From the IMG/VR virus record IMGVR_UViG_3300022745_000083, positions 1 through 39,234 of that record: a stretch of 39,234 nucleotides of DNA. One strand, 5' to 3'. A program made the translations under genes and the position numbers. Positions within the stretch are counted from its first letter, which is position 1, and each line of letters starts with the position of its first letter. The stretch comes from a virus. The notes beneath the pieces are model-generated. The model ran no database searches, had not been told where the DNA came from, and saw only the letters and a list, made by a program, of their open reading frames with translations. This document shows, piece by piece, positions 4,003-21,898 of this stretch.

Positions 4003-4241
4003 GGGGGCAGAACTACGCCCCTCCCACCCCTCGTGTAAACCTGGGGTTGCCAACGTCAAAGGGTTGTGTCTGGTAAGTGGCTGATTTCATTAGGTGGTTG
4101 ACGGTTGATCCGAAAAAACGACAAGGGGACGAAAAAAAAATCGTCTTTGCCCCCCTTTTGTTGTTGTGTTCTTTTTCCACCTGGACGATAACCAACGTGG
4201 TGCCGGTGTTGAACGAAACGAAAACGAACGGAGCAACGAAC
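4003..4241. promoter_or_regulatory. Divergent control region
   Basis: This gap separates the leftward regulator gene from the rightward small-gene island and is the only divergent gene boundary in the window. It holds most of the first copy of the 146-bp leader, including a GACGA-A-run-TCGTC hairpin flanked by C and T runs. A weak sigma70-like pair, TTGTGT and GATAAC with 17-bp spacing at about 4164-4192, can be proposed. No strong consensus promoter is visible, so the start sites are unknown. Confidence 0.5.
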
Positions 4242-4252
4242 ATGAGCAACGA
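4107..4252 (+). repeat. 146-bp leader repeat, copy 1
   Basis: This segment is almost identical to 5378-5522: one base is substituted (CCGG versus CTGG) and an A run is 9 versus 8 long. It starts with GATCCGAAAAAACGACAAGG, has a hairpin with an A-rich loop, a CCCCCC-TTTT tract, then a spacer rich in AACGAAACG and the start codon ATGAGCAACGA. Both copies end inside a small gene encoding MSN. It probably works as terminator plus promoter plus translation leader. Confidence 0.9.
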
Positions 4253-5377: not shown

Positions 5378-5522
5378 GATCCGAAAAAACGACAAGGGGA
5401 CGAAAAAAAATCGTCTTTGCCCCCCTTTTGTTGTTGTGTTCTTTTTCCACCTGGACGATAACCAACGTGGTGCTGGTGTTGAACGAAACGAAAACGAACG
5501 GAGCAACGAACATGAGCAACGA
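5378..5522 (+). repeat. 146-bp leader repeat, copy 2
   Basis: This is the near-identical second copy of 4107-4252. Here it lies between two rightward genes, 7 bp after the small membrane protein, so its hairpin and T-rich tract would end the upstream message and the rest would restart expression of the next gene. High identity in a non-coding segment points to recent duplication, strong selection or gene conversion. Confidence 0.9.
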
Positions 5523-6567: not shown

Positions 6568-6807
6568 ATGCTGACTCTCGTGTTGCTGGTAGGGGTTGCG
6601 ATCGTGATCTGGGCACTCTCCCAGGTAGAAGCGTCGCAAACAACCCGCCGCAATGCGCTAGCGGGATCTGTGCTCAAAGCAGTGCGCACACGACGACGAT
6701 CCGCGCGATCGATGAATAATCGTTGTGACTTGATCCCGAAACCCTTCGTGGCAAAAGTTGAGCAGCGCCAGTTTGGTAGGACTGGCAAGCTGCAAGGCGA
6801 TCCCTAG
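6568..6807 (+). CDS. Single-pass membrane protein with basic tail, 79 aa
   Basis: Residues 2-17 (LTLVLLVGVAIVIWAL) form an N-terminal membrane helix, followed by a strongly basic stretch (TRRRSARS) that should stay in the cytoplasm. The C-terminal part is hydrophilic. The gene ends just inside the first 122-bp tandem repeat. It starts 6 bp after the preceding gene, so they are likely co-expressed. No family recognised. Confidence 0.6.
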   Translation: MLTLVLLVGVAIVIWALSQVEASQTTRRNALAGSVLKAVRTRRRSARSMNNRCDLIPKPFVAKVEQRQFGRTGKLQGDP

Positions 6808-7044
6808 CCGTAACGAGGGGAATAACTAGCGAAAATCGGCTGATCTAACCGGAACGGGGAATCAGCTAGGCGGAGTGCAGAAACCGCTACAACAAACGCA
6901 ACTATCCCCCGAAAAATGGCAATCCCTAGCCGTAACGAGGGGAATAACTAGCGAAAATCGGCTGATCTAACCGGAACGGGGAATCAGCTAGGCGGAGTGC
7001 AGAAACCGCTACAACAAACGCAACTATCCCCCGAAAAATGGCAA
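6801..7044 (+). repeat. Perfect 122-bp tandem duplication
   Basis: Two identical units, 6801-6922 and 6923-7044, with a third beginning (TCCCT) at 7045 that diverges at once. Each unit contains a GCTGAT/ATCAGC stem, two related segments (CCGTAACGAGGGGAATA and CCGGAACGGGGAATCA), a CGG/CCG hairpin around GTGCAGAAA, and CCCCCGAAAAATGGCAA. That last motif is the 5' part of the tRNA-like element after unit 2. Perfect identity suggests recent duplication or active homogenisation. I see no convincing coding sequence. Confidence 0.95.
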
Positions 7045-7096
7045 TCCCTGCGGTTTGTCCGTAACGCAGGGCAAGGTTCGATCCCTTGTCGGGGGA
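7028..7096 (+). tRNA. tRNA-like element, unusual or degenerate
   Basis: The 3' part is a canonical T-arm: CAAGG-TTCGATC-CCTTG at 7072-7088, followed by TCGGGGG and a discriminator-like A. TCGGGGG pairs perfectly with CCCCCGA at 7028-7034, making a 7-bp acceptor stem. Between them there is no normal D stem, only AAAAATGGCAAT. The anticodon position is an over-long hairpin (CCCTGC, bulged G, GTT; loop TGTCCGT; AAC, GCAGGG). Position 33 is not U, so I assign no anticodon. At 69 nt it is short. It could be a decayed tRNA, a tRNA mimic or a minimal tmRNA-like fold; no CCA is encoded. Confidence 0.45.
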
Positions 7097-7099
7097 CTA

Positions 7100-7188
7100 G
7101 CGATCCAGTGCGAGTTATGGTGTTTGTGCGGTTGCTCCACACTTCCGAAACGAGCGGAGGGGTCCACCGTAACGCCACGCTGGATCGC
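7100..7188 (+). ncRNA. Candidate structured RNA next to the tRNA-like element
   Basis: A 9-bp inverted repeat, GCGATCCAG at 7100-7108 and CTGGATCGC at 7180-7188, encloses 71 nt with further possible stems: GGTG with CACC, and CTTCCG with CGGAGG around a 7-nt loop. It starts four bases after the tRNA-like acceptor. There is no good reading frame. This could be an independent small RNA or a 5' leader structure for the gene at 7239. The stems are visible by eye only; no folding was computed. Confidence 0.35.
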
Positions 7189-7238
7189 AACTTTCATCGT
7201 ATACGTGCCCAGTGACATAACCAACCGGAGATCAGCCT

Positions 7239-7715
7239 ATGCAGCTTCAAGCCAACCGATCCCGCAGTTTCTCCCCCCAGTTTGGGATCCCCGGTGTTCC
7301 GGGTAAGGGCAGGTGTAACCGCCGAAACAAGGGCAAGCGTATCAATCAAAGCGGAAGCACTAACCGTGCTGTAAACCGTCCCGCAGCGGTACAGGATTCG
7401 ATTCCCGAGCCGAACGATCACCCTGAGATCCCCGTTTTGCATGATTTCGGATGCGCTTGTCCGCTGTGTGTGGAGGGGCAACCCGAGCCCCCGATTCTGC
7501 GGGATATCGTTCCCGAGATCGCTAACGAAGGAAATGCAAAGATCCCCACCACGTTATTCGGCAATGTGATCAACTGGGGTGACCTGGAATCCCACACGAT
7601 CCCCGAACTAAGGACCATTGCAGCGAACTGCATTCCTCCGATCAAGGTTCCGCGAGTCGGGAAACCGGCAATCATTGCAGCGATCCAGGCTGCGTTGGGG
7701 AGCATGGATCTGTGA
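7239..7715 (+). CDS. Hypothetical protein with possible SAP-like C-terminus, 158 aa
   Basis: The N-terminal 60 residues are basic and low in complexity (GRCNRRNKGKR region). The middle contains FGCACPLCVEG, a CxCPxC cluster that may bind metal. The C-terminal 35 residues, HTIPELRTIAANC then KVPRVGKPAIIAAIQAAL, resemble a SAP-type helix-extension-helix DNA-binding motif. A DNA-binding role would suit its place at the head of the replication module. Its stop overlaps the GTG start of the next gene. Family assignment is tentative. Confidence 0.65.
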   Translation: MQLQANRSRSFSPQFGIPGVPGKGRCNRRNKGKRINQSGSTNRAVNRPAAVQDSIPEPNDHPEIPVLHDFGCACPLCVEGQPEPPILRDIVPEIANEGNAKIPTTLFGNVINWGDLESHTIPELRTIAANCIPPIKVPRVGKPAIIAAIQAALGSMDL

Positions 7716-8047
7716 AACACTACCCACACCGTTACAGCCTGAGCGTGGAGATCCAAGCGCTCGCAATGCAGCGGATCACCGATACTCGAGATCCCGGGGA
7801 CGAAACCGCAGGAACGTTGGAAGATATGGCGGAACGCATCGCTGGGCTAGAAGACTCGGCTAAAGCGCTCGCCACGATCGGATCCTTACTCGGGATTCCC
7901 CGTTGCGAAAAGGGCACGATCGTAGCCCCCGAACGCGCGGAGGGGGGGCTAATCGTGTCTCCCGAGTGGATCGCCAAAATCGTGGGCAAGGTCCGCGCAA
8001 TGACGCAACCGGCAACCAAAACCGAAGCAAAGGGGGCTAAGTCGTGA
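7712..8047 (+). CDS. Hypothetical protein, 111 aa
   Basis: I do not recognise this protein. It has a GTG start overlapping the preceding stop (GTGA) and itself ends in a GTGA overlap with the exonuclease gene, so three genes are tightly coupled. It begins with a basic/aromatic MKHYPHRYSL, has an acidic helix near ETAGTLEDMAERIAGLEDSA, and ends with a Lys/Thr-rich tail. Probably helical and cytoplasmic. Context suggests a replication accessory. Confidence 0.65.
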   Translation: MKHYPHRYSLSVEIQALAMQRITDTRDPGDETAGTLEDMAERIAGLEDSAKALATIGSLLGIPRCEKGTIVAPERAEGGLIVSPEWIAKIVGKVRAMTQPATKTEAKGAKS

Positions 8048-8763
8048 TTTACTACGCACTCGATATCGAAACGACTGGACTGGATCCGGAAACATGCCAG
8101 ATCCTTTCAATCGCAATGGTCCGGGAGGATACGGAACAAGCGCACAAGTGTGCTGTGGACGATCTCCCCTGGATCCACGTTGGGATCAGCCATCGGCTTA
8201 TCAAAGGGGAACCGTACGCGTTGCAAATGAACGCACCCCTGATCAAGTCGCTGATCCCTGAGTCTGGATATCAAGGGTTGATCTGGGATCGCAACGGTAT
8301 GCACGTTCACCGCACCCCCTATAGTGCAGTTCGTCAACTGCTTGCGTGGATCTGTGACGATGGCCGGATAAACGTGGCCGGCAAGAACGCAGCGGGGTTC
8401 GATATCCCGTTTCTGGCATCCCACGGGCTACACGAACTAACCGCACGTTTTCGCCACCGTGTCATTGACGCGGGATCGGCGTTTGTGGATTGGAGCGCTC
8501 AAACGCTCCCCGATCTGCAAACCTGCAAGAAAATCGCGAATGTTCCAGGGGACGTTGCCCACAACGCACTAGAGGATGCTAGGGACGTGATCCGCGTGCT
8601 TCGGGCTAAGTACGCTCCGAACGCTGACAAGATCCGCGAAACGATCCGCCCGTACGGGTTGGAAGGCGTAAACGCGCCAACTTACACCCCCTGCGGTCAG
8701 TTCGTAAACCGATACAGCGAACCGTGTAAGTGCAGCATTTGCGTAGCTTCACGACACGGCTAG
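8044..8763 (+). CDS. DEDDh 3'-5' exonuclease
   Basis: A 239-aa DnaQ/RNase T-type exonuclease. Exo I is DIETTG with D7 and E9. Exo II is NAAGFDIPFL near residues 115-124. Exo III is HNALEDAR with His173 and Asp178, so all four acidic residues and the DEDDh His are in place. A 30-residue C-terminal extension carries four Cys (PCGQF, then EPCKCSIC), possibly a zinc site. Because the phage polymerase has its own proofreading domain, this enzyme more likely trims ends, degrades host DNA or RNA, or repairs. GTG start with GTGA overlap. Confidence 0.88.
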   Translation: MIYYALDIETTGLDPETCQILSIAMVREDTEQAHKCAVDDLPWIHVGISHRLIKGEPYALQMNAPLIKSLIPESGYQGLIWDRNGMHVHRTPYSAVRQLLAWICDDGRINVAGKNAAGFDIPFLASHGLHELTARFRHRVIDAGSAFVDWSAQTLPDLQTCKKIANVPGDVAHNALEDARDVIRVLRAKYAPNADKIRETIRPYGLEGVNAPTYTPCGQFVNRYSEPCKCSICVASRHG

Positions 8764-8767
8764 AAGT

Positions 8768-8953
8768 ATGCCAACCATTTCGGAACAACTAGAGATCCGA
8801 TGGTTGAATGTCAAAACCGCAGCGACTAACCTAGTTGGCAAGCTCGAAAAAGAGCGGGGGCAACTCCCCGTTAGCGTTCAAGCAGCGGCTAGTATCTTAC
8901 AGCGTAGACTTGACGAACTAGCGAAGGAACTAGCGAAGGAATCAACCAAGTGA
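8768..8953 (+). CDS. Small helical protein, 61 aa
   Basis: A short protein that should be nearly all helix; the last 20 residues repeat a Leu-Ala-Lys-Glu pattern (LDELAKELAKESTK). No family recognised. It sits between the exonuclease and the Cas4-like nuclease and its stop overlaps the nuclease GTG start, so it is probably made in step with it and could be a partner subunit. Confidence 0.6.
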   Translation: MPTISEQLEIRWLNVKTAATNLVGKLEKERGQLPVSVQAAASILQRRLDELAKELAKESTK

Positions 8954-10752
8954 CGCACCCAGCCGATCGAATGTTTGCGCCGAACAAGCGCAAAGCCTGG
9001 AAACATGCGAGCGCATCGCAGTTACAGACATTCGATCGTTGCCCCCGTCGCTGGTACCTAAGCAAGATCCTGGGGGTGTGGGAGTTAGAGGGGGCATGGT
9101 TGAAAGTGGGTAAGGATGCGCACAGCCGTATCGAAAACTACCTGCTAAATGATACCGCCCCCGATCCTATGATCTCCCCGGGGATCGTGTTCCTTCCGCG
9201 CCCTAGGCTTCCGCGCTTGCTAGTAGAGCGAAGAATCGCGATCCGAGATCCGCAATGGGAAGTGCCGATCGTTGCGGTTATTGACCTATTTCGACCTAAT
9301 GACACACCCCCGGGGGTTACCGATCACAAGTCAGTTGGTAACGTCAAAGCCCCCCAAAAAAGGGGGCAACCCGCGCACTATACGGATCAGTTTCCAAAGG
9401 GTGCCGAAACTACCGCGATCGAACGGTTCGATGATATCCAGGCAACGATCTACACGGTACACTTGCACGCTGTAAAAAAGGGCTTGCCGTGGGTTTTTGA
9501 GTACACCGATTCTCACGGGACGCATTACCGGGGGCACGATTTGCCAACCGTCAGCGATGCCCCCCAAAACGGGTATAGTTACCGATGGTTACAGTTTTTG
9601 AGCAAGCCCCCGTATCGGGCCAGACTGATAGAGGTTATACTAACCCCCCTTGCCCTGACGCTGGGGCTTGCAAGGGTTCACGAACTAATGCGCGCAATGG
9701 CGATTGCAGCCAAAGCCGAGCACGAAACGCAAGTCGCTGCAAACCCGAGCGCTTGCGACGATTACGGGGGTTGTTCCTTCCGATCGCGCTGTGCGATCTA
9801 TGGTGCGATCCCGTTTGGTAGACCACGAAAGGATAAAAGGACCATGAGTTACCCACAGCCACCTATGCCCACAATGCAGGGGGAGATCCTGCAAGCGCTC
9901 GCTACTTCACAACCCGTGATTTCACCCCAGATTCAAGCGATCATGGATCAGATCAAGGCAAGCGCTCAGGGGTTCAAGACGGCGGGACATACGCTGGAAT
10001 CCGCCACCCCTCAGCTTACCCAATGGGGGCAGTCGCAAGGGCTGACGTATGAGGCTGCGCGGGACGCGGTTTTTATGGGCTATGGGATTCCCGTCAGCGC
10101 CCCCCAGCCTGCCCCCGTGCCTATGGCCCCGCAAGCTCCCCAGGGTGCTCCGATGGCCCCTCAGGGTGCTCCGAACCCGTATCAAGTGCAGGTTAACCCG
10201 GCAACTGCTCCGGCAATCGATCCGAACCCCCCTGACGGTGCCGATCTCGATAGTGACGACACTCAGGAGCCGATCAAGGGGCTTGCCAAGAATCCGAAAA
10301 TCCCCGCTTGGCAAGGGATCACGTTCGGGGGTCAGCAACTCGGCTCAATCAAAGCAGCCGAAATGACCGTACTACATACCCAGTTGTACGTGATCACTTG
10401 CAGCCAACCGATCTGGAAAACCGCTTACGATGCGCTGAGCACTCGTAACGGATCCAGCAAGCGCACTGATATGAAACGCGATTGCGCGCTTATGCTCGGG
10501 ATTGTGGAAGGCAAGATCGGCCCAGGGGACGCTAGCCCCGTCACTGCCCCGAACAAGCCGATCGCAAACCCCCCGCAGCAAACCCTTGCTAGCCCTTCCG
10601 CTACTTCAACGCTGCAAGGGGCGTTCAACTCGGGATCGGAACCCGTGATCGTGATCCTGATCACGGATCCAGCAAAAGCGGTACAGTTCACGTTCAACGC
10701 TGCACTTGCTGCAAAGCTGCACTCGCAAGGGTGCGCGTTGATCAAGGTCTAA
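8950..10752 (+). CDS. Cas4/RecB-like PD-(D/E)XK nuclease fused to a C-terminal domain
   Basis: A 600-aa protein. Residues 1-290 are a RecB/Cas4-type nuclease: ASQLQTFDRCPRRWYL with Cys31, KDAH (His58), the VIDLF Asp (D112), TDHKS (D125, K127) and a QxxxY-like motif at Q164. Cys269, Cys275 and Cys281 with Cys31 would ligate an iron-sulfur cluster as in Cas4 and AddB. Residues 299-600 are different: helical, then a Pro/Gln/Ala-rich linker (APQ repeats near 385-415), then a domain not recognised. An in-frame ATG at 9844 with a strong ribosome-binding site may yield the C-terminal part alone. Comparable nucleases accompany family A polymerases in other phage replication modules. Confidence 0.85.
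   Translation: MTHPADRMFAPNKRKAWKHASASQLQTFDRCPRRWYLSKILGVWELEGAWLKVGKDAHSRIENYLLNDTAPDPMISPGIVFLPRPRLPRLLVERRIAIRDPQWEVPIVAVIDLFRPNDTPPGVTDHKSVGNVKAPQKRGQPAHYTDQFPKGAETTAIERFDDIQATIYTVHLHAVKKGLPWVFEYTDSHGTHYRGHDLPTVSDAPQNGYSYRWLQFLSKPPYRARLIEVILTPLALTLGLARVHELMRAMAIAAKAEHETQVAANPSACDDYGGCSFRSRCAIYGAIPFGRPRKDKRTMSYPQPPMPTMQGEILQALATSQPVISPQIQAIMDQIKASAQGFKTAGHTLESATPQLTQWGQSQGLTYEAARDAVFMGYGIPVSAPQPAPVPMAPQAPQGAPMAPQGAPNPYQVQVNPATAPAIDPNPPDGADLDSDDTQEPIKGLAKNPKIPAWQGITFGGQQLGSIKAAEMTVLHTQLYVITCSQPIWKTAYDALSTRNGSSKRTDMKRDCALMLGIVEGKIGPGDASPVTAPNKPIANPPQQTLASPSATSTLQGAFNSGSEPVIVILITDPAKAVQFTFNAALAAKLHSQGCALIKV
9828..9846 (+). promoter_or_regulatory. Internal ribosome-binding site and start
   Basis: AAAGGATAAAAGGACCATG inside the nuclease gene puts two purine-rich Shine-Dalgarno-like tracts before an in-frame ATG. 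The downstream residues MSYPQPPM begin the non-nuclease half just after the iron-sulfur Cys cluster. The site resembles the one before the gene at 12934 (GGAAGGATAAAACACACC). A separate product of 302 aa is inferred. Confidence 0.5.
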
Positions 10753-10757
10753 CGATT

Positions 10758-11009
10758 ATGCGAACCGTCAACGTCAACCTGGATCTTAGTCACGCAAATA
10801 TCGTCAGCACGTTGCGACGGACTAATCTAACAATGACGGCGGAAGCTATCATTGTGGAAATCGGCAAGCGCTGCGGGGTTGCGTTGGTTGACGTTGACGG
10901 CCGTATACTGCGTTGGAAACTTCGGGATCTTGTCGTTGACCGCTTGATCTACGTAGTAAATGCCCCAACTAAAAAGACACCGGCAACATATCGCGCAACA
11001 GGAACCTAG
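10758..11009 (+). CDS. Hypothetical protein, 83 aa
   Basis: I do not recognise this protein. The ATG at 10758 follows the nuclease stop by 5 bp. It looks like a small alpha/beta domain: an N-terminal strand MRTVNVNLDL, helices around residues 20-35, a second strand pair near VALVDVDGRILRWKL, and a short basic tail. No membrane segment. It lies between the nuclease and helicase genes, so a replication role is plausible. Confidence 0.65.
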   Translation: MRTVNVNLDLSHANIVSTLRRTNLTMTAEAIIVEIGKRCGVALVDVDGRILRWKLRDLVVDRLIYVVNAPTKKTPATYRATGT

Positions 11010-11012
11010 CCA

Positions 11013-11243
11013 ATGACTGACACAACCAAACCGACGATTGATATCAACCAAACCCGCGATTCGGTTGGGTTGCTGATTCGTCATTTGCGGGTTGCTAGGG
11101 CTGCATATACCAAAATCGGTAACTTGGACGAACACCCCGTTATCGCTGGCATGCTCGCTGACGCTGACGCGCAGCTTGCGACATATCAGCAAGTTTACGC
11201 ATCGTTGTGCCAAGCGACGGTTACGGAAGGAAAACCCGCGTAA
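11013..11243 (+). CDS. Small helical protein, 76 aa
   Basis: A helical protein with two predicted helices (SVGLLIRHLRVARAAYTK and ADADAQLATYQQVYASLCQA). No family recognised. Its TAA overlaps the helicase ATG as TAATG, and the helicase ribosome-binding site (GGAAGG) lies within its last codons, so helicase translation is probably coupled to it. Confidence 0.65.
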   Translation: MTDTTKPTIDINQTRDSVGLLIRHLRVARAAYTKIGNLDEHPVIAGMLADADAQLATYQQVYASLCQATVTEGKPA

Positions 11244-12925
11244 TGTCTGAAATGGCCCGCATATGCGCGATCCCGCGAGTTGAGCCGCAACCCGTGGATC
11301 TAAACCCCTACCTTCTACGCGGAACGCACGCTTACCGTTTGCGCCCCGTTCAAAGTTTGGGGCTTGCAGTGATCGCGCATATGCGGGGCTTGCTCGGCTT
11401 TATGAGGGTTGGATCTGGCAAAACGTTACTGTGCGCGCTTGCCGGAACCATGCTGCGCGCAAAGTACACAATCGTTCTAACTTCCGCCCCCTTGGTTGCG
11501 GATATGGACGCAGCCTATCGCGACGTTGCCTGTAAGTATTTCCACACGTACGGTACTACTAAGGCAATGTCTTACGATGCACTGAGCGGGGAGAATAACA
11601 GCGAAGTGCTTGATCGGTACTTGCAGCGATTCGGAAGCGAGCTAGCGATCGTGGCTGACGAATGCCATTCGTTACGCGATCTGACCCGTGCTCGCACGAT
11701 CCGACTTGGGCGCTTGCTACTTGCTAACCCAACGATTCCGTTCGTTGCCGTTTCGGGAACGATCACACGATCATCGTTGTACGAATATGCACACCTTGCA
11801 GATTGGGCGCTTAGGGCTAGCTCCCCGGTTCCACGTCCTAGCTACCCGGACTGCTTACGCAAACTAGCGGATTGCATGGATCTGAAATCAGAACCGGATT
11901 CCGAATCGTTTCGTTACGGGGAAGCGCTCGCAATGTGGGCAGGGATTCAATGGCCTTCACGGGAGGCTACAGCGGAGGATCGCAAACGTGCGACACGATC
12001 CGCCCATTTCATTCGGTTGAAATCTGCCCCGGGAGTGGTAGTAACCGAGTCAAGTGACGACTACAACGGCAAGCTGACGATTACCAAAGTCAAGCTACCG
12101 ATCCCCGAAAATGTGCAACACGCGTTAGCGGATCTGGCAATCAACGGGCTATTGCCTAACGGGGACGTTGCGGAAGATCCGCTCAGCCAATGGCGAGCGG
12201 AAATGCAGATCGCTACGGGTTTCTTCTACTTTTGGCAATGGCCAAATGGGATCAAAGATCAAGCCTGGATCGATGCTCGGCGGGAATGGCACAAGTTTGT
12301 TCGTGCGGAACTGACGAATAGTGCGAGTACTAACTATGACTCCCCTTCGCTCGTAAAACGTGCGGTTGAATCCGCTATGCAGTCGGCGGTCTGGCATCCT
12401 GGGATCCCGCTCTATCGTGCTTGGCTTCCGCATTCGGCTAAACGATGGAACGGACAAGACACCCCTCCAACCGTGGGGGTTGTGTTGTCTGATTTTCTAG
12501 TCCGGGAGGCTGTAGCCCTAACCAAGGGGCAACCCCCTACCCTGATTTGGTACGCTTCCGACGAATGCGCCGAAATGCTCAAACGACTCGGGATCGATTG
12601 CTTCGGGTCGGGATCCCACTTACCCCGAAAAGCTCGCACGATCGGGATATCGTGGCGTGTTTTCAAGCAAGGTAAGAACCTGCAAGATCGATGGTATCGC
12701 ATGATTGTTCTTGAACCCCCCGCTAGCGGGGAGCATTGGGAACAACTCATAGGACGCGTTTACCGATCGGGCCAACCATCGGATCACATTGACGTGCTAA
12801 TACCGCAGCACGCAACACCCTATATCAACGCGTTGCGTAACGCGTTGAACGAAACACGGGAGTACATGCAAACGCTAACTACCGTGCCATTGCTGTTAAC
12901 CCGCGCAACTTTTGCGGAAGGATAA
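11243..12925 (+). CDS. SNF2-type SF2 helicase/ATPase
   Basis: A 560-aa superfamily 2 ATPase. Walker A is MRVGSGKT (residues 57-61 GSGKT), motif II is DECH at 139-142, motif III is SGT at 171-173, and motif VI is QLIGRVYRSGQ at 501-511. The RxxRxGQ form is characteristic of SNF2/SWI2 proteins. Phages often carry such a helicase with a D5-type primase, VRR-NUC and family A polymerase. It may remodel forks or displace protein from DNA. The ATG at 11243 is chosen over an upstream in-frame alternative because of the TAATG overlap and GGAAGG. Confidence 0.9.
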   Translation: MSEMARICAIPRVEPQPVDLNPYLLRGTHAYRLRPVQSLGLAVIAHMRGLLGFMRVGSGKTLLCALAGTMLRAKYTIVLTSAPLVADMDAAYRDVACKYFHTYGTTKAMSYDALSGENNSEVLDRYLQRFGSELAIVADECHSLRDLTRARTIRLGRLLLANPTIPFVAVSGTITRSSLYEYAHLADWALRASSPVPRPSYPDCLRKLADCMDLKSEPDSESFRYGEALAMWAGIQWPSREATAEDRKRATRSAHFIRLKSAPGVVVTESSDDYNGKLTITKVKLPIPENVQHALADLAINGLLPNGDVAEDPLSQWRAEMQIATGFFYFWQWPNGIKDQAWIDARREWHKFVRAELTNSASTNYDSPSLVKRAVESAMQSAVWHPGIPLYRAWLPHSAKRWNGQDTPPTVGVVLSDFLVREAVALTKGQPPTLIWYASDECAEMLKRLGIDCFGSGSHLPRKARTIGISWRVFKQGKNLQDRWYRMIVLEPPASGEHWEQLIGRVYRSGQPSDHIDVLIPQHATPYINALRNALNETREYMQTLTTVPLLLTRATFAEG

Positions 12926-12933
12926 AACACACC

Positions 12934-13803
12934 ATGAATCCTAACCAACCCCCTGGATACCCTCCCCCGGGCTACGGTGCTCAAACTCCCGGGTACCCCC
13001 CGCAGGGCTATCCGAACCAACCCCCTGGATACCCTCCCCCGCAAGGCTACGGCGCTCAAACTCCCGGGTACCCCCCACAACAGGGCTATCCACAGCAAGC
13101 CCCGCAGGGCTACCCGCAACACACCCCCCCGGGCTACCCCCCGCAGGGTGCGGATCCGTACGCAAAGATCGGGGATGTTACGGTGTATCAGTCCGGGGAG
13201 TACGTAACCCCGGGGCAACACGTTTTCAAAGTGCGCAACATTTCGAGCCGTCCTAGCGACAAGAAACACGGTGTAACCGTTTTCGTTGCTGAGCTTGAAT
13301 GCGTGAAATCCATTGGGGGGCGTGCACTTGCTACCGACCCCCAAAATCAGCAACTTAGCGCACCGATCGGGATCGGGGCTATGTGCGCCCATGTTTGCAC
13401 TTCCGATTCCCAAATGTTCTTGCAGAACGTCAAGGCGTTTATGGGGGCTTTGCTCCCCGGGGGCGTGGATTCGGTAACGAATCATACCGTGATCGATGCT
13501 ACGGGGCCAAGTCAGCCGTTTGCAGGGCGTTTCGTGTATGCTGACGCTTCGATTGATCGTGCAAAGTCTACGGGTAAAGACTTCACGCGGATCAGTTGGT
13601 TTCCTGCGGAAAACGCGCCCCCGATCCCCGATCCCGTTCCGCAGCCGCCCCCGCAGGGCTACGGTGCCCCTCCCGTTCCGCAGCCGCCCCCGCAAGGCTA
13701 CGGTGCCCCTCCCGTTCCGCAGCCGCCCCCGCAAGGCTACGGTGCCCCTCCCGGATACGGAACGGGATTCCCGAGCCCCTACGCTCCCCAGCCTCCCCGC
13801 TAG
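12934..13803 (+). CDS. Putative ssDNA-binding protein with two low-complexity tails
   Basis: A 289-aa protein. Residues 1-75 are almost only Pro, Gly, Tyr and Gln, with QPPGYPPP-(Q)GYGAQTPGYPPQ repeated and PQGYPQ variants. Residues 76-230 form an ordered domain with beta-rich segments (YVTPGQHVFKVRNI, VTVFVAELECVKS). Residues 231-289 are again disordered, with PQPPPQGYGAPPV three times. The place between helicase and polymerase is where other phage modules have an ssDNA-binding protein, and the central domain has the look of such proteins; this is context-based. Strong ribosome-binding site GGAAGGA. The tails resemble those that drive self-association, and their DNA repeats are prone to slippage. 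Confidence 0.65.
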   Translation: MNPNQPPGYPPPGYGAQTPGYPPQGYPNQPPGYPPPQGYGAQTPGYPPQQGYPQQAPQGYPQHTPPGYPPQGADPYAKIGDVTVYQSGEYVTPGQHVFKVRNISSRPSDKKHGVTVFVAELECVKSIGGRALATDPQNQQLSAPIGIGAMCAHVCTSDSQMFLQNVKAFMGALLPGGVDSVTNHTVIDATGPSQPFAGRFVYADASIDRAKSTGKDFTRISWFPAENAPPIPDPVPQPPPQGYGAPPVPQPPPQGYGAPPVPQPPPQGYGAPPGYGTGFPSPYAPQPPR

Positions 13804-13819
13804 TTGTTGAGGGTACCCC

Positions 13820-15790
13820 GTGCGTTATTTCGCGTTTGACACCGAAACACACCGATTTAGACGGGGCCACAAAGCCCCTCAACTGATCTGCGTTTCGTGG
13901 GCGGATTCGGAAAAACGCACGGGGCTACATAACGCACGGGAGGGGCTAGCTCTTCTACTTTACCAGTTGCGAGATCCCGCCACGCTAATCGTGGGGCATA
14001 ACGTTGCCTATGATTTCGCTTGCGTGATCGCCACTTCGCTTGTGATCTGGCCAGAGATATCCGCCGAACTAAATCAACGGATCTGGGGTGCATACCGATC
14101 AGGGCGGGTTGTTGATACGGGAGTCGTTGCAACGCTCCGAAGGATCGAAACGGATACACTGGAATACTGCCCTGTATTGCGCCGAAAACCGGGGGTATCT
14201 CTTGCCGATACTGCGTTGACCTATGCGGGGATTGAGCTAGGCGATAAGTCAGGAACGGATCACATACGCAACCGTTACGCGGAAGTCGCGCACTTAGACG
14301 TTAGCCGGTGGCCCGCTGAGTTTCGAGACTATGCGGTAAAGGATGCGACCACAACCGCTGCGGTATGGGAATCGCTTAGCCCCACTTGTAGCCCGAACGC
14401 TCCGATCCAGTGTTTCCACGCGTGGACACTACACCTAGCGGGTTGCTGGGGGTGGCGTACCGATCCTATTGCGGTTGCCGAACTGAAAACGGAACTAGAA
14501 CGCAGGGTGAAGGGCGTTCGGTATCAGTTAGCGCAAGCGGGGATCCTATCAGTTGACGGAACCGGGTATAAAGCGAGCACTAAGACGATTCGCGATCGGA
14601 TCGTGCATGCGTACAACGCCAAAGGGCAACGCCCCCCGATAACGGAGCCAACCGGCAAGTTTCCGCAAGGGCAAGTCAAAACCGACACTGAAACCCTTTT
14701 CAACTGTGGGGATCCTGATCTTGCTGCGCTAGCGTCGATTGGGTTGGACGAAACCGAACTATCCACGTTTATCCCTTGGTTGGAGCTTGGCACAACTGGC
14801 CCAATCCATCCCGCTTGGGAAGTGCTCAAAGAAACGGGTAGGATCAGTTGTCGGGAACCGAACATAACCAACCAACCCCGACGAAAAGGGGTTAGGCGTT
14901 GCTACGTACCCCGATCGGGTTTCGTCTACTTGTGCGCGGACTATTCCGCCGCTGAGTTAGTTGCGCTCGCTCAAATATGGCTTGAGCGTTATGGATCGTC
15001 AGCACTCGCGGAAGCCTTCAAACAAGGCAAGGATCCTCACCTAATCACCGCTTCCCAACTTCGGGGGCGTTCGTACGATGCCACTCGGGAGGCTTATAAA
15101 TCGGGGGATATCGCAACGGCTGACGATCGTCAGTTGAGCAAGATCGCCAACTTCGGTTTGCCGGGGGGATTGAGCGCAAAAACGTTCGTTGACCACGTTC
15201 GGAAGCAAACACGTAAGGCTGACGGTACGTTTCCCGCGTGGGTTGCTGCGTTCGATTTGACCGAATCCCAGCGCGTTTGCTCAGCGTGGGCTAACGCATG
15301 GCCCGAATCCCGTTATTACTTCAACGATGCTAAACGGGCCACTTCGGGACGTTCGGGGCCGTACGGTGTGCAACTCACTAATCCGCGATCGGGGCGGGTT
15401 AGAGGCGGGTTGCGTTACACCACTTGGCTAAATACCCAGTTTCAGGAACGGGTGGCGGATATCACGAAACTAGCGTTTACCCGTTGCTCCGATCTAGCCC
15501 ATACTGACCCGCGTTCCGCGTTGTGGAGTAGCCACCCTATTGGCCTGATCCACGATGAAATCATTTTGGAAGTACCGGAACAACAACTAGCAGACTGTGC
15601 ACCCCTAGTGCGGGAAATCATGGTTAGCACGTTCGCTCAGTTCTGCCCCGATGTTCCCGTAAAAGTAACACCTAGCGCTTGTAGACGTTGGCATAAGGGT
15701 GCGGAACCCGTGCTAGTCAACGATCGGCTAGTTCCTTCAAAACCCGTCGTTGACGGTGAAAAGGTCAAATGGATCCATGATGAAATATAA
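13820..15790 (+). CDS. Family A DNA polymerase with 3'-5' exonuclease
   Basis: A 656-aa replicative polymerase without a 5'-3' nuclease domain. The proofreading domain has FDTET (D7, E9), GHNVAYDF (about 59-66) and RDYAVKDA (about 169-176). The polymerase domain has motif A CADYSAAEL near 374, motif B RQLSKIANFGLPGGLSAKTF near 437-456, and motif C IHDEIILEV near 577. In motif B the Arg, Lys and Phe are kept, but the Tyr usual after NFG (Klenow Tyr766 position) is Gly, in LPGG instead of LIYG. GTG start after GAGGG. Followed by, and overlapping, the HD hydrolase gene. Confidence 0.95.
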   Translation: MRYFAFDTETHRFRRGHKAPQLICVSWADSEKRTGLHNAREGLALLLYQLRDPATLIVGHNVAYDFACVIATSLVIWPEISAELNQRIWGAYRSGRVVDTGVVATLRRIETDTLEYCPVLRRKPGVSLADTALTYAGIELGDKSGTDHIRNRYAEVAHLDVSRWPAEFRDYAVKDATTTAAVWESLSPTCSPNAPIQCFHAWTLHLAGCWGWRTDPIAVAELKTELERRVKGVRYQLAQAGILSVDGTGYKASTKTIRDRIVHAYNAKGQRPPITEPTGKFPQGQVKTDTETLFNCGDPDLAALASIGLDETELSTFIPWLELGTTGPIHPAWEVLKETGRISCREPNITNQPRRKGVRRCYVPRSGFVYLCADYSAAELVALAQIWLERYGSSALAEAFKQGKDPHLITASQLRGRSYDATREAYKSGDIATADDRQLSKIANFGLPGGLSAKTFVDHVRKQTRKADGTFPAWVAAFDLTESQRVCSAWANAWPESRYYFNDAKRATSGRSGPYGVQLTNPRSGRVRGGLRYTTWLNTQFQERVADITKLAFTRCSDLAHTDPRSALWSSHPIGLIHDEIILEVPEQQLADCAPLVREIMVSTFAQFCPDVPVKVTPSACRRWHKGAEPVLVNDRLVPSKPVVDGEKVKWIHDEI

Positions 15791-16484
15791 CCCGAATATC
15801 GCGCTAGTCTGGGTGCCCCCTATGCAACGCGAAAGGGGTCCATATGTAACGATGCATAGCGGGGCTAAGGCTTTTCCGCTAAATCCCGATCGCGGTGACG
15901 TGCGTATGGCTGACGTGTGTAGGACGCTAGCTACCACTTGGCGTTGGCGAGGGGCTACGCAAGGTGGGTTGTATTCGGTAGCGGAACACTCGTTACGAGT
16001 GGCTGCGGTTTGCCGGCAAATCGCCATTGATCAAGGGCTGAATAGGTGGGGGGTGAATCTTACCCACTTGTGCGGGTTACTTCACGATTCGGGGGAATAC
16101 TTGTTCCCGGATATGCCCCGACCGATCAAGGGCGACTGTTTTGTGAAAGGGCTTGACGGTGAGCTAGTCCCCTATGATGTCGCTGAAATGAAGGTAACGC
16201 GGTCGGTTGTTGAGGCTTGCGGGGTTTCGTGGGCGGAATACGAGTCAGCGGAATCAATCGTAAAGCTAGCCGATGATGCGATCCTATACGCGGAAGCGCG
16301 GGATCTCGTGAAATCGGCGGAATGGTGGCGACAAAAGGCGAAACCCGAGCATTTGCACTATATGACCGAAACGATAACCCCCGGTCATTGGGGGGGTGTA
16401 GACGATACTGCGCTAGCCCTAGAAGTGGAGATCCAGGTAGCCGCAGCCTACGTAAAACACTTTCGGAGCAATCAATCATGCTAA
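15777..16484 (+). CDS. HD-domain nucleotide hydrolase (DatZ/YfbR-like)
   Basis: A 235-aa HD phosphohydrolase. The family pattern is clear: TMHSGAKAFPLNP near residues 25-37, DVRMADVCRTLATTWRWRG, YSVAEHS with His71, LLHDSGE with His103-Asp104, and a distal Asp in KLADDAILYAE. Relatives include YfbR 5'-nucleotidase and the phage dATP triphosphohydrolase DatZ. It likely trims a deoxynucleotide from the pool next to the polymerase. The start is ATGATG at 15777/15780, overlapping the polymerase stop. No PurZ or MazZ partner is present, so 2-aminoadenine DNA is not indicated. Which nucleotide it cleaves cannot be read from sequence. Confidence 0.85.
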   Translation: MMKYNPNIALVWVPPMQRERGPYVTMHSGAKAFPLNPDRGDVRMADVCRTLATTWRWRGATQGGLYSVAEHSLRVAAVCRQIAIDQGLNRWGVNLTHLCGLLHDSGEYLFPDMPRPIKGDCFVKGLDGELVPYDVAEMKVTRSVVEACGVSWAEYESAESIVKLADDAILYAEARDLVKSAEWWRQKAKPEHLHYMTETITPGHWGGVDDTALALEVEIQVAAAYVKHFRSNQSC

Positions 16485-17317
16485 CTGAATACCAACGCCC
16501 CCCGTTGAAGTGGGCAGGGGGCAAGTTTAGGCAACTCCCGACACTGATCCCGCTAATCGGGGAGATCAAAGGACGGTATATTGAGCCGTTTCTAGGTGGG
16601 GGTTCTGTGTTCCTAAACGTGCAAGCCCCGTTTTCGGTTGTCAGCGATGCGAACCTGGATCTAGTCAACTTCTACCGCCAAGTGCAAGCCGATCCCCGAA
16701 TAGGGGCTAGTTGGTTCAACTGTGGGCAAAATACCGAAGGAAACTACAACGCGATCCGTGCGGGGTTCAACGGTAAGCAGCACCCCCCCGCAACTCTTGC
16801 GGGTTGGTTCCTTTACCTAAACAAGCACGGTTATAACGGGTTGTACCGCGTAAATGCTGACGGGGGGTATAACGTGCCCTGGGGCAAAGCCGAGCGGGAT
16901 CCTAGCTACCCTAGTGACGCAATGTGGGCACTCCACCGTAGGTTACAAACCGCGATCGTAAGCAGTCCGTTCTACACTGCAAAGCCCTACGCAAGCACGA
17001 TTGACAACGCAACGCGGGGGGATTTCGTCTACTGTGATCCGCCTTACGTTCCACTCGATAAAGGCGGGTTCACTGCTTACACTTCCGATGGCTTTGAATG
17101 GTCGGATCAGTGCTTGCTAGCCCGTTCGGTTCAAGCTGCATTCGAGCGAGGGGCACGTTGCATAGTGCAAAATCACGATCTCCCCGCAGTTCGGCAACTA
17201 TACCACTCCCACGGCGCTACTCATTTCGCCACGATCAAAGCTAGTCGCTCAATCAACAGTGACGGGGGCAACCGTGGGGAGGTTGACGAACTAATAGCGA
17301 TCTGGGGGTTACCGTAA
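16478..17317 (+). CDS. Dam-type N6-adenine DNA methyltransferase
   Basis: A 279-aa D12-class (Dam family) enzyme. It has LKWAGGKFRQL and EPFLGGGSVF for cofactor binding, a conserved YLNKHGYNGLYRVN-type core with YNVPWG, catalytic DPPY in DFVYCDPPYVPL, and a C-terminal SRSINSDGGNR segment matching Dam proteins. GATC is the probable target by family likeness; the genome is very rich in GATC. The ATG at 16478 is used because it overlaps the HD stop by 7 bp and an upstream in-frame extension matches nothing. It protects phage DNA or marks it for regulation. Confidence 0.93.
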   Translation: MLTEYQRPPLKWAGGKFRQLPTLIPLIGEIKGRYIEPFLGGGSVFLNVQAPFSVVSDANLDLVNFYRQVQADPRIGASWFNCGQNTEGNYNAIRAGFNGKQHPPATLAGWFLYLNKHGYNGLYRVNADGGYNVPWGKAERDPSYPSDAMWALHRRLQTAIVSSPFYTAKPYASTIDNATRGDFVYCDPPYVPLDKGGFTAYTSDGFEWSDQCLLARSVQAAFERGARCIVQNHDLPAVRQLYHSHGATHFATIKASRSINSDGGNRGEVDELIAIWGLP

Positions 17318-18051
17318 TGCAGTATCTGGGGGGCAAGTTTCGGTTGCGTAAGGTGATCGCGGGATTCGTCAATGACGCGATCCGGGAGAAAGGATCCGCT
17401 TTCTATGTAGAGCCATTCGTTGGGGGCAACAATATCAGCGCCCTAGTAAACCCGACTTGTGACGGCTGGATCCCGGGGGTGCGGAAGTACCTTTTCGACG
17501 CAAACCTAGCACTGATCAACCTGTATCGTGCGATTCAATACGGCTGGGTACCCCCCGACGAAATGAGTGCTGACCAGTATGCCGTGTTGAAACGCGCAAA
17601 CGATGCGACAAATCCACTTACCGCGTTTGCTGCCGTAGGTTGCTCGTTTGGGGGTAAATGGTGGGGAGGATATGCAACCAACCAACCCCATAACGGGATA
17701 GATTACGCTAGGGCTGCTAAAAGGCGTCTAACGGAAAAACTAGCGACGGGATCTTTGTTTGCGTGCGTTCCGTTTCTGACTGTAGACCCCCACCCTAGCG
17801 CGGTTTTCTACTTGGATCCGCCTTATGACTCCACAACGGGTTACGCGGGTTGCCCCCCGTTCGATAATCGCACATTTTGGGTGCATGCTGCATACCTAGT
17901 GCGCAAGGGGGCTACCGTGCTAGTTAGCGAGTATAGACCCCCTCCCGTGCCACATACCCTTTTGCACGTTCAAGCTAAGAACATCGAAAGTTGTCTGCTA
18001 AAGCACAGGGGGCAGGATACAGCCGAAAAGTTATTCAGGCTGCTACCGTAG
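17317..18051 (+). CDS. Second D12-class adenine methyltransferase
   Basis: A 244-aa enzyme starting at a TAATG overlap with the first methyltransferase. It has MQYLGGKFRLRK and YVEPFVGGNN for S-adenosylmethionine, DANLALINLYRAIQ, and catalytic DPPY in VFYLDPPYDS. It is shorter than and clearly different from its neighbour, so probably not a recent duplicate, and its target may differ from GATC. A CSFGGKWWGGYA segment replaces the first enzyme's target-recognition stretch. It ends inside the 3' end of the convergent holin-like gene (9-bp overlap). Confidence 0.88.
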   Translation: MQYLGGKFRLRKVIAGFVNDAIREKGSAFYVEPFVGGNNISALVNPTCDGWIPGVRKYLFDANLALINLYRAIQYGWVPPDEMSADQYAVLKRANDATNPLTAFAAVGCSFGGKWWGGYATNQPHNGIDYARAAKRRLTEKLATGSLFACVPFLTVDPHPSAVFYLDPPYDSTTGYAGCPPFDNRTFWVHAAYLVRKGATVLVSEYRPPPVPHTLLHVQAKNIESCLLKHRGQDTAEKLFRLLP

Positions 18052-20206: not shown

Positions 20207-21898
20207 TCAGGCTGCGGGGGTCACGTATACCAACCAAACGGGGCTTACCCCGTCAGTTCCACACTCCCGAAGCGCTCGCAGGTTGGTAGGGCTACCCGAC
20301 AAGCACAAGCCCCCCGGGGAAGGCTTCAAATACGCCCCAGGGGTCACGTTGCCGGCAACCCGTGCTCGCACTTGCCCCAGCAAAGCAACCCGTGTGTATT
20401 CGGAAGGGCGCTCGCTTCTAGGCACGTAAACACGACTCGGATCCCACACGGGATTTACCCGGGGGATATCAAGCATTCGGGGAGCTGCCTTACCCTGCAA
20501 GTGCTCGGGACACCGATCGAATGGCCCCTCGTACCCGGGATCCCAAGTGACGGTAACAGCCCCCGTAACGGGATCAGGTTCGGAAACGATTTTCTGCCCT
20601 TCAACCTCAATCCAAAGGGTTGGATCCGTGATCACGTTATCCCAAACATCTCGCAACCAGCGCCCCTCCCAATCGAGCGCAGCGGTATTACCCGTTACTC
20701 CAGGTTTGTTGCTGACAATGCCGAGCGTAACGTCCCCTTCCGTTGCCGGTCGGATCTTGTCCCCTTCCAACGCAATCGCAACCCCGATCGGGATTACACC
20801 GATCGTCAGATTCTCGAAATATTCCGCGTAGTCAGCCCCTCCCGTATCAAACGTGTTGCCGTAAAACACCCCCGTGTTTCCGTTGATCCGCCACGTTTGA
20901 TTTTGCTCGCTAACACCCCCCGGTGTAAGTGAAGTAACCCCGGTTTTCTTACCACCGGCAACGATATAATCTCCCGTGATCTCCACATATTTGGCTGCAA
21001 GGGCAACCGAACTGCCCCCCGCAGCCCCTTGCGAGATCGTAGTGTTTGAAGTGGCGATTGCAGCGGATACGGGTTTGCGCACTTCGCTTTGAGCAGCGCC
21101 CCCCGCTGACGCAATAACAGCACTGCAAGTCTTATCGACCTTGCCCCCGTTACATGCGAGCGATCCCGTATACCCTGCTTGCAACTCCACACCATCGGAA
21201 GCGAGCGCGATCGATTTGGCGGATACCGTTTGCGTGCAGTTGCTTGACGCAATAGCAGCCGTGTGCATTTGCGTTGAAGTGCAAGCGTCGGAAGCTGCAA
21301 ACAACTGATAAAATGCTAGATTGCTAGAGTTGTCGGAAGCGCACCCAGTTGACGCGATATGCGCGTTATTGGTTCCGCCCATTGCCCCCGTGTTACATGC
21401 AATCGCTGCACATTCATCCCCGGTAATGGTGAAAGTGTCCGTTGCGAAGGCAACGTTATGCAGCCCTGAGTTGCTAAGCGAAACCCCCGCGCCTAGAATC
21501 GACTCGGATCCTTGGTTGTAGCTAGCACTTGTAGCGATACAAACGCACCCCGAATGTGCCCCATTGACCCTAGAAGTGCTGACCGCGATCAACACACCCC
21601 CCGCGTAACTTGTGCGGGTTGTGGATCCCATATCCGTTGTGTACGCGTCAACCGCTCGTGTTCCGTTCAAGTTTTGCGCAAGTTGCGTGCTTACGGTTTT
21701 ATCGAGCGATCCACCCCGAAGCAATGCCACACCGTCAAGCTCAGCCATAACCATATTGAGCCATTCGGCAGGTAGCACGGTTCCGGGGATGGCACCCCCT
21801 GGATTGAGCGGATCACCGTCGGTAAACCATCCTGCGGTACCTGTTGCGGTAGCCCCTGGGCGAACGGATACAGCTGACGCAATGTCGATCTGATACAT
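20207..21898 (-). CDS. Tail fiber with beta-helix repeats and self-cleaving G2 domain
   Basis: A 563-aa fiber. After a particle-binding N-terminus (residues 1-90), residues about 100-330 hold ten or more repeats of 15-18 residues around (A/V)-x-I-A-(S/C/T), such as AAIACNTG, AHIASTGC, AAIASSNC, AVIASAGG and AAIATSNT. They are rich in Ser, Thr and Cys, as in a trimeric beta-helix. Near 360 the DYAEYFEN sequence begins a Peptidase_G2-type intramolecular chaperone domain (ALEGDKIRPATEGDVTLGIV, then a GNTAALDWEGRW segment), which normally cleaves itself off after trimer folding. About 12 Cys in the repeats is unusual. It would bind the host surface. Confidence 0.85.
   Translation of the reverse strand: MYQIDIASAVSVRPGATATGTAGWFTDGDPLNPGGAIPGTVLPAEWLNMVMAELDGVALLRGGSLDKTVSTQLAQNLNGTRAVDAYTTDMGSTTRTSYAGGVLIAVSTSRVNGAHSGCVCIATSASYNQGSESILGAGVSLSNSGLHNVAFATDTFTITGDECAAIACNTGAMGGTNNAHIASTGCASDNSSNLAFYQLFAASDACTSTQMHTAAIASSNCTQTVSAKSIALASDGVELQAGYTGSLACNGGKVDKTCSAVIASAGGAAQSEVRKPVSAAIATSNTTISQGAAGGSSVALAAKYVEITGDYIVAGGKKTGVTSLTPGGVSEQNQTWRINGNTGVFYGNTFDTGGADYAEYFENLTIGVIPIGVAIALEGDKIRPATEGDVTLGIVSNKPGVTGNTAALDWEGRWLRDVWDNVITDPTLWIEVEGQKIVSEPDPVTGAVTVTWDPGYEGPFDRCPEHLQGKAAPRMLDIPRVNPVWDPSRVYVPRSERPSEYTRVALLGQVRARVAGNVTPGAYLKPSPGGLCLSGSPTNLRALRECGTDGVSPVWLVYVTPAA

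Follow-up and report, generated by a model that had tools for sequence, protein, structure and literature searches.

A predicted D-armless tRNA-like RNA ahead of the replication genes of a myovirus, and elements of similar design in other phages

Introduction

What kind of RNA is specified by a phage segment that carries the acceptor stem and the T-arm of a tRNA and lacks a D-stem, and what may it do ahead of the replication genes? The segment lies at positions 7028-7096 (plus strand) of the virus record IMGVR_UViG_3300022745_000083 (positions 1 to 39,234; this whole 39,234-base stretch is hereafter called the window). A sequence-only reading had singled it out as an unusual tRNA-like RNA. This element stood, and two things had been overlooked: the larger array of structured modules in which it is set, and the presence of such elements in other phages. 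The analysis points to a real, non-decoding, D-armless tRNA-like RNA of a myovirus, presumably transcribed as part of the leader of the replication genes. Its structure is well supported; the function discussed below is a proposal. No published description of phage elements of this kind was found in the open-licence literature, which is weak evidence of absence.

Structure of the element

The element measures ~69 nt. The 7-bp acceptor stem is made by CCCCCGA (7028-7034) and TCGGGGG (7089-7095), and is followed by the discriminator A7096. An 11-nt loop without D-stem, AAAATGGCAAT (7035-7045), replaces the D-arm, and holds a GG dinucleotide comparable to G18G19. The anticodon position is occupied by a hairpin (7046-7071), in which CCCTGCG (7046-7052) and CGCAGGG (7065-7071) close the 12-nt loop GTTTGTCCGTAA (7053-7064); a few inner pairs are possible within the latter. 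The variable loop is absent, and the hairpin directly abuts the canonical T-arm CAAGG-TTCGATC-CCTTG (7072-7088; strands 7072-7076 and 7084-7088, loop 7077-7083). CCA is not encoded, the next letters being CTA.

All 12 pairs of the acceptor and T-stem are Watson-Crick, and the earlier description of both as perfect, with a D-arm reduced to a loop, is borne out. The bulged 9-bp hairpin described at the same time consists instead of 7 perfect pairs. An eighth acceptor pair, U7027-A7096, is possible (p 0.83-0.86). Pair probabilities computed in context are 0.81-1.0 for the acceptor, 0.93-0.97 for the T-stem and 0.91-0.99 for the hairpin.

A strict descriptor (TTCRANY loop, 5/5 pairs in the T-stem, 7/7 in the acceptor, Watson-Crick only) matched once in the window, and not at all in 10 Mb of sequence generated by a first-order Markov model of the same composition. 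When G-U pairs are allowed, ~0.04 matches are expected per window. Compared to dinucleotide shuffles, the minimum free energy has a z of -3.2 for the interval 7025-7100, and of -4.7 for 6740-7240. The minus strand folds about equally (z -3.55), as expected from the perfection of the stems. The T-loop consensus is found on the plus strand only, and the flanking genes are also on the plus strand.

The array and its gene neighbourhood

The element is the second-last module of a structured array of ~400 nt (about 6796-7188, plus strand), diagrammed here from left to right. Two copies of a 122-nt tandem repeat, 99% identical, span 6796-6917 and 6918-7039. The first holds the branched module G1 (6829-6899) and the start of module T1 (6905-6943), the second the branched module G2 (6951-7021) and the 5' end of the tRNA-like RNA. 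T1 is a paralogue of the 5' half of the tRNA-like RNA, devoid of T-arm. The same 5' strand, UCCCCCG, pairs with CGAGGGGA in T1 and with UCGGGGGA in the tRNA-like RNA, and this alternative complementary partner is a weak internal sign that pairing matters. Module G3 (7100-7188) begins 3 nt past the tRNA-like RNA, and features an 11-bp closing stem (GCGATCCAGTG/CGCTGGATCGC) and a branched interior (z -3.65). Modules are separated by the spacers ACTA or AACTA. A coding explanation of the array was rejected, the copies being 99% identical with a period of 122 nt; as 122 is not divisible by 3, no single frame can serve for both. The motif CCGNAACG recurs 7 times at 6808-7174 (~370 nt), across the modules, as compared to 23 occurrences over the full plus strand of the record; its count in the array results in part from the duplication, and it is possibly a shared loop or protein-binding motif.

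The host of the array is a contractile-tailed phage, a myovirus. Terminase, portal, capsid/protease fusion, sheath, tape measure and baseplate genes are located on the minus strand, the replication genes on the plus strand. A small ORF (6568-6807, plus strand, 79 aa, no family match) terminates at the start of the array; its stop codon lies 220 nt ahead of the tRNA-like RNA and does not adjoin it. The first ORF past the array (7239-7715, plus strand, 158 aa) also has no family match, and is preceded by a possible Shine-Dalgarno (SD) sequence, CCGGAGA. The replication block (8044-15790, plus strand) follows downstream, and includes genes for a DnaQ-like exonuclease (8044-8763), a PDDEXK nuclease (8950-10752), a helicase (11207-12925) and a family A DNA polymerase (13820-15790).

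The tandem repeats and strong hairpins next to the replication genes lie in non-coding DNA, and both strands fold; these traits could denote a DNA-level element, such as a replication origin or packaging hairpins, whose likeness to a tRNA is accidental. This is highly unlikely given the strand-specific T-loop consensus, the chance estimate reported above, and the orientation of the elements found in relatives, which lie on the same strand as the operon.

Other features were observed in the window. Two 120-nt copies, 99% identical (4133-4252 and 5403-5522), are located directly ahead of two small ORFs which both start with ATGAGCAACGA, and look like a duplicated promoter/5' UTR cassette. Close to the left end (67-200) there are five palindrome-like repeats of the form GTGTC..TTTTGACAC, perhaps operator or iteron sites. 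An imperfect 94-nt inverted repeat, 76% complementary, with a 41-nt spacer, is found at 1057-1285 in apparently non-coding DNA. GATC occurs 564 times in the window, versus about 153 expected from length alone, and GCGATCGC is absent; two adjacent genes (16322-17317 and 17317-18051) encode D12-class adenine methyltransferases. A tail-appendage-like protein with a Peptidase_G2 autoproteolytic domain is encoded at 20207-21898 (minus strand).

Comparison with known RNA classes

The element was not identified as a tRNA by ARAGORN at default settings, nor by the Rfam tRNA model at E<=10. With no D-stem, no 7-nt anticodon loop and no U33, it is not a decoder tRNA, as previously held. The tRNA and tmRNA covariance models, proposed at the time as a check, gave no Rfam match in the window even at E<=10.

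The acceptor, the T-arm and a D-loop without D-stem are also found in the tRNA-like domain of tmRNA. Unlike tmRNA, the element has no tag frame, no pseudoknots and no CCA, and both ARAGORN at default and Rfam (to E<=10) were negative for tmRNA in the window. Lowering the threshold of the ARAGORN tmRNA search to 50% yielded candidates all labelled 'Tag not identified'. The notion of a minimal tmRNA-like shape thus falls for want of a tag frame and of a pseudoknot domain. A bacterial Y RNA-like molecule of the YrlA type is similarly disfavoured, as Rfam gave no match at E<=10 and no Ro-like protein was found among the ORFs scanned. In neither the window nor the scanned relatives did any Rfam family reach its cut-off; matches to RNase MRP, RF_site1, DUF805 and CRISPR-DR36 were far under the cut-offs, and were taken as chance.

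The T-arm and the acceptor 3' strand resemble the 3' end of a tRNA, as would be expected of an attachment site in which the phage carries a copy of the 3' half of the host tRNA gene where it integrates. Here, in contrast, the acceptor retains its 5' strand, which is paired; the ORFs scanned revealed no integrase; and a search of the genomes of 84,980 species of bacteria and archaea gave no exact copy of the 22-nt 3' end, so that an attachment site is barely credible.

The closest known design is that of mascRNA and menRNA (RF01684), found at the 3' end of eukaryotic lncRNAs. These are L-shaped RNAs endowed with an acceptor, a T-arm, a short D region with two essential G residues, and a lengthened anticodon-side stem, without linker residues, and are processed by RNase P and RNase Z (PMC11693755). 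The same features mark the element of the window: a 7-bp acceptor, a canonical T-arm, a reduced D region with GG (the two G residues contact the T-loop in mascRNA/menRNA), a longer stem replacing the anticodon arm, no linker residues, and a size in the range of ~60-70 nt. Differences are evident as well. One design resides in animals, the other in a phage; the phage element lacks the D-stem altogether, has a hairpin loop of 12 nt, and was not matched by the RF01684 model at E<=10. Processing by RNase P and RNase Z has been shown for mascRNA, and is only surmised for the phage element. Among phages, the best near-match to RF01684 (L209) scored 26.8 bits versus a cut-off of 42.5.

A similar layout, with a long-stem module after a tRNA-like 5' module, is featured by the TMERs of gammaherpesviruses, in which a viral tRNA-like RNA precedes hairpins. 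TMERs are pol III transcripts of a eukaryotic virus with a microRNA output, and the likeness to the window is one of layout.

Elements in phages with related polymerases

No close homologue covering the region was found by using the polymerase, the DnaQ-like exonuclease, the primase and the helicase as queries. The only close relative, L002 (polymerase 97% identical), stops short of the element. Genome contigs yielded only distant polymerases (24-29%), and the exact 3' end of the element is absent from the viral and genome collections.

More distant relatives were retrieved by a hand-made degenerate DNA pattern for the polymerase motif ANFG[LF]PGG; patterns drawn from the polymerase alignment A1 were poor. 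At least 119 viral stretches were obtained. In the best 30 of these, polymerases are 28-36% identical to that of the window, and the helicase is often encoded as well; two correspond to the 97% relative (L002/L015). Longer contigs, 2.6 Mb in total, were searched by the strict descriptor, requiring in addition a G53-C61 pair. Among the matches listed, seven ARAGORN-negative elements were found on seven contigs (window, L009, L012, L024, L029, L143, L171), versus 0 in reversed or complemented controls; the same descriptor also picked eight ARAGORN tRNAs.

In five phages, checked as whole contigs or long stretches (the window, MW202816, G018, G046, G039), elements reside on the operon strand, inside or just upstream of the exonuclease-helicase-polymerase genes. 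Relatives were picked by a polymerase motif, and nearness to the polymerase in short loci is consequently in part a selection effect. In L009, L012 and L143 the element is outside the polymerase operon, or not upstream of the polymerase. Several elements are close to the preceding stop codon, at 0 nt in L171 and L009, about 5 nt in L143, and about 7 nt in MW202816. The latter is a distant relative with the same exonuclease-helicase-polymerase order and a polymerase ~25-30% identical to that of the window. Its element is slightly imperfect, and is made by GGACGAT/ATCGGCC (6/7 pairs), the linker GCAGGTTGT, a long hairpin and a 4-bp T-stem.

Among the matches listed, the plan closest to that of the window is found in L024 (G018), in which TCCGCGT is followed by TTGGCAAA, a 9-bp hairpin, the T-arm and, at once, a long-stem module. 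Branched long-stem modules are thus located within a few nt of the tRNA-like RNA both in L024 (1403-1489) and in the window (7100-7188); that of L024, which ends in TTCCTTTTT, may be a terminator. In L171 (G039) there are two 44-nt versions without hairpin, each placed after a stop codon and ahead of the next SD/start. Two copies in L143 are followed by T-runs. GG is present in the linkers of L024, MW202816, L143 and L171. The hexamer TGGCAA was considered as a common motif; this lead is partial, as beyond L024 matches in other records look like chance. Cloverleaf-like elements missed by ARAGORN were observed in L009 (4239-4319) and L029 (2384-2458, minus strand), and both have the atypical anticodon loop CCAGTA(C/A), in which position 33 is C.

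Minihelices in Gordonia phages and mycobacteriophages

When the region of the window was compared to phages by blastn, nothing beyond short matches to the T-arm emerged; these fell in tRNA-Lys genes and at sites without annotation in Gordonia phages. The genomes of these Gordonia phages, which form an unrelated group, carry elements of a simpler plan, hereafter called minihelices: an acceptor, a 9-20-nt linker with GG, a T-arm, and A or G as discriminator. The descriptor identified 9 minihelices in ObLaDi and 16 in VanLee, the latter counted in about half the genome, and 0 in reversed controls. One minihelix each was found in the mycobacteriophages MyraDee and Bactobuster. For Cafasso, VanLee and ObLaDi, a covariance model derived from the Gordonia set (R1) detected 11-17 in each genome; a single one was detected in the mycobacteriophage Superchunk, and none was found by R1 in Bachita, Stormageddon, EagleEye and the Pectobacterium phage Abuela.

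Minihelices are regularly placed. In VanLee and ObLaDi, 24 of the 28 codirectional leftward gaps of 60-700 nt hold a minihelix (25 minihelices in all). Most start 6-10 nt past the stop codon, and end 28-51 nt ahead of the next start. Linkers contain GG in 25/25; in G-rich minihelices the figure is 29/29, only mildly above the shuffle mean of 24.4. In L212 and L213, a GC hairpin and the box GGCACCCAAC usually come after the minihelix, ahead of the SD of the next gene. A tRNA-Arg gene adjoins a gene for a Ro-like RNA-binding protein in VanLee (L213, 25455-27368), and there may be a Y RNA-like RNA nearby.

Compensatory base changes are clear in the Gordonia minihelices. In a set of 16, one of which from Cafasso, 97.7% of the cells are paired, and six pairs are altered on both sides. 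The covariation score is 0.491, versus 0.123 (sd 0.026) in shuffles, and 0.08-0.16 when the alignment is slid.

The minihelices of VanLee, ObLaDi, Cafasso, Superchunk, MyraDee and Bactobuster share with the element of the window the acceptor, a GG linker without a full D-arm, the T-arm, a discriminator which is mostly A, the lack of CCA, and the location in intergenic gaps on the operon strand. They differ in having no middle hairpin, a length of about 41-52 nt, mostly 6-bp acceptors and a GC-rich composition. R1 does not match the window record at E<=0.1, and for this reason a common design is claimed, not common descent.

These data bear on the view that the element is a decayed tRNA gene, a former phage tRNA which lost the D-arm and is drifting. 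The T-arm does resemble those of phage tRNA-Lys in the blastn matches, and repeat copies are rearranged; drift, in contrast, would not preserve an acceptor, a T-stem and a hairpin all perfect. The seven elements on seven contigs which, among the matches listed, escape the tRNA model, and the compensatory changes in the Gordonia elements, similarly make decay quite improbable.

A possible role in transcript processing

Host RNase P cuts phage RNAs other than tRNAs, as the C4 antisense RNA of P1/P7, the M3 RNA and the T4 gene 32 mRNA (PMC11143913). These substrates are not described in that work as cloverleaf remnants made by an acceptor and a canonical T-arm; for the element of the window, cleavage is conjectural. 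Since bacterial RNase P accepts such RNAs, and mascRNA/menRNA are processed by RNases P and Z, the element may be a cis-acting processing signal on a polycistronic phage transcript, a form of tRNA punctuation. This is the favoured reading, at nearly an even chance. The element retains the features read by tRNA-processing enzymes, namely the 12-bp acceptor/T stack, the T-loop, and GG in the D-replacement loop. Recognition in cis by host tRNA-processing enzymes is suggested by the position of elements at stop codons and by the conserved acceptor/T-arm/GG geometry. The earlier suggestion that the RNA engages host tRNA enzymes or RNase P is accordingly favoured in terms of position, as elements of relatives reside in operons, often directly after stops.

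Starting from the computed fold, putative cleavage, enzymes and benefit can be outlined as follows. The T-loop would pack against the linker GG to form an elbow, which along with the acceptor/T-arm stack would be the part read by enzymes. Host RNase P would cut on the 5' side of C7028 or U7027; the cut after A7096 would be made by a nuclease of tRNA 3' ends, for example RNase Z. The polycistronic transcript would be severed at the element, and the upstream mRNA parted from the replication mRNA; both would gain defined ends, and the ~69-nt RNA would be freed as a by-product. The hairpin replacing the anticodon arm would act as a spacer or confer stability, and protection of the new end may fall to G3, the long-stem module next to the element. 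Several observations stand against such a role. The element is 220 nt past the stop codon, does not encode CCA, and is missed by R1; the elements of L009, L012 and L143 are outside the polymerase operon or not upstream of the polymerase; and linker GG in the G-rich minihelices is only mildly above shuffles.

The same features could serve in trans. As a free RNA, the element might titrate host tRNA enzymes or tRNA-targeting defence nucleases, since acceptor, T-arm and elbow features read by many tRNA-binding proteins are retained, and several copies reside in some phages. Such a decoy appears unlikely, as the anticodon loop, the usual target of anticodon nucleases, is absent, and Gordonia copies are found one per intergenic gap at fixed distances from stops and starts, a spacing for which a trans-acting decoy has no need. 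Alternatively, the RNA may stay uncut and work as a structural end-block, like the tRNA-like structures of plant viruses, shielding the mRNA from exonucleases or insulating the translation of neighbouring genes. The location past stop codons and ahead of a GC hairpin and SD, the long-stem module which comes next in the window and in L024, and the T-runs after two L143 copies are in keeping with an end-block. Simple hairpins would suffice for this, in contrast, and tRNA-type recognition is suggested by the invariance of the T-loop and by covariation within the acceptor/T-arm geometry; an end-block is hence considered improbable.

To return to transcript processing, it is conceivable, if somewhat short of probable, that unrelated phage groups use minimal tRNA mimics as general intergenic punctuation which recruits host tRNA-processing enzymes. 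The minimal mimic would be composed, with the same reservation, of acceptor, elbow GG, T-arm, and an optional hairpin replacing the anticodon arm. RNAs of this type are unannotated even in well-curated actinophages because programs that find tRNAs look for a D-arm and an anticodon arm; the genome paper of VanLee, for example, gives one tRNA (PMC8320454). If correct, phage punctuation would be to prokaryotes what tRNA punctuation is to mitochondria, and would likewise parallel mascRNA. If RNase P and RNase Z do cut these elements, phages would shape their own transcripts through tRNA mimicry, and minihelices would be natural minimal substrates for RNase P, the CCA-adding enzyme and T-loop modification enzymes.
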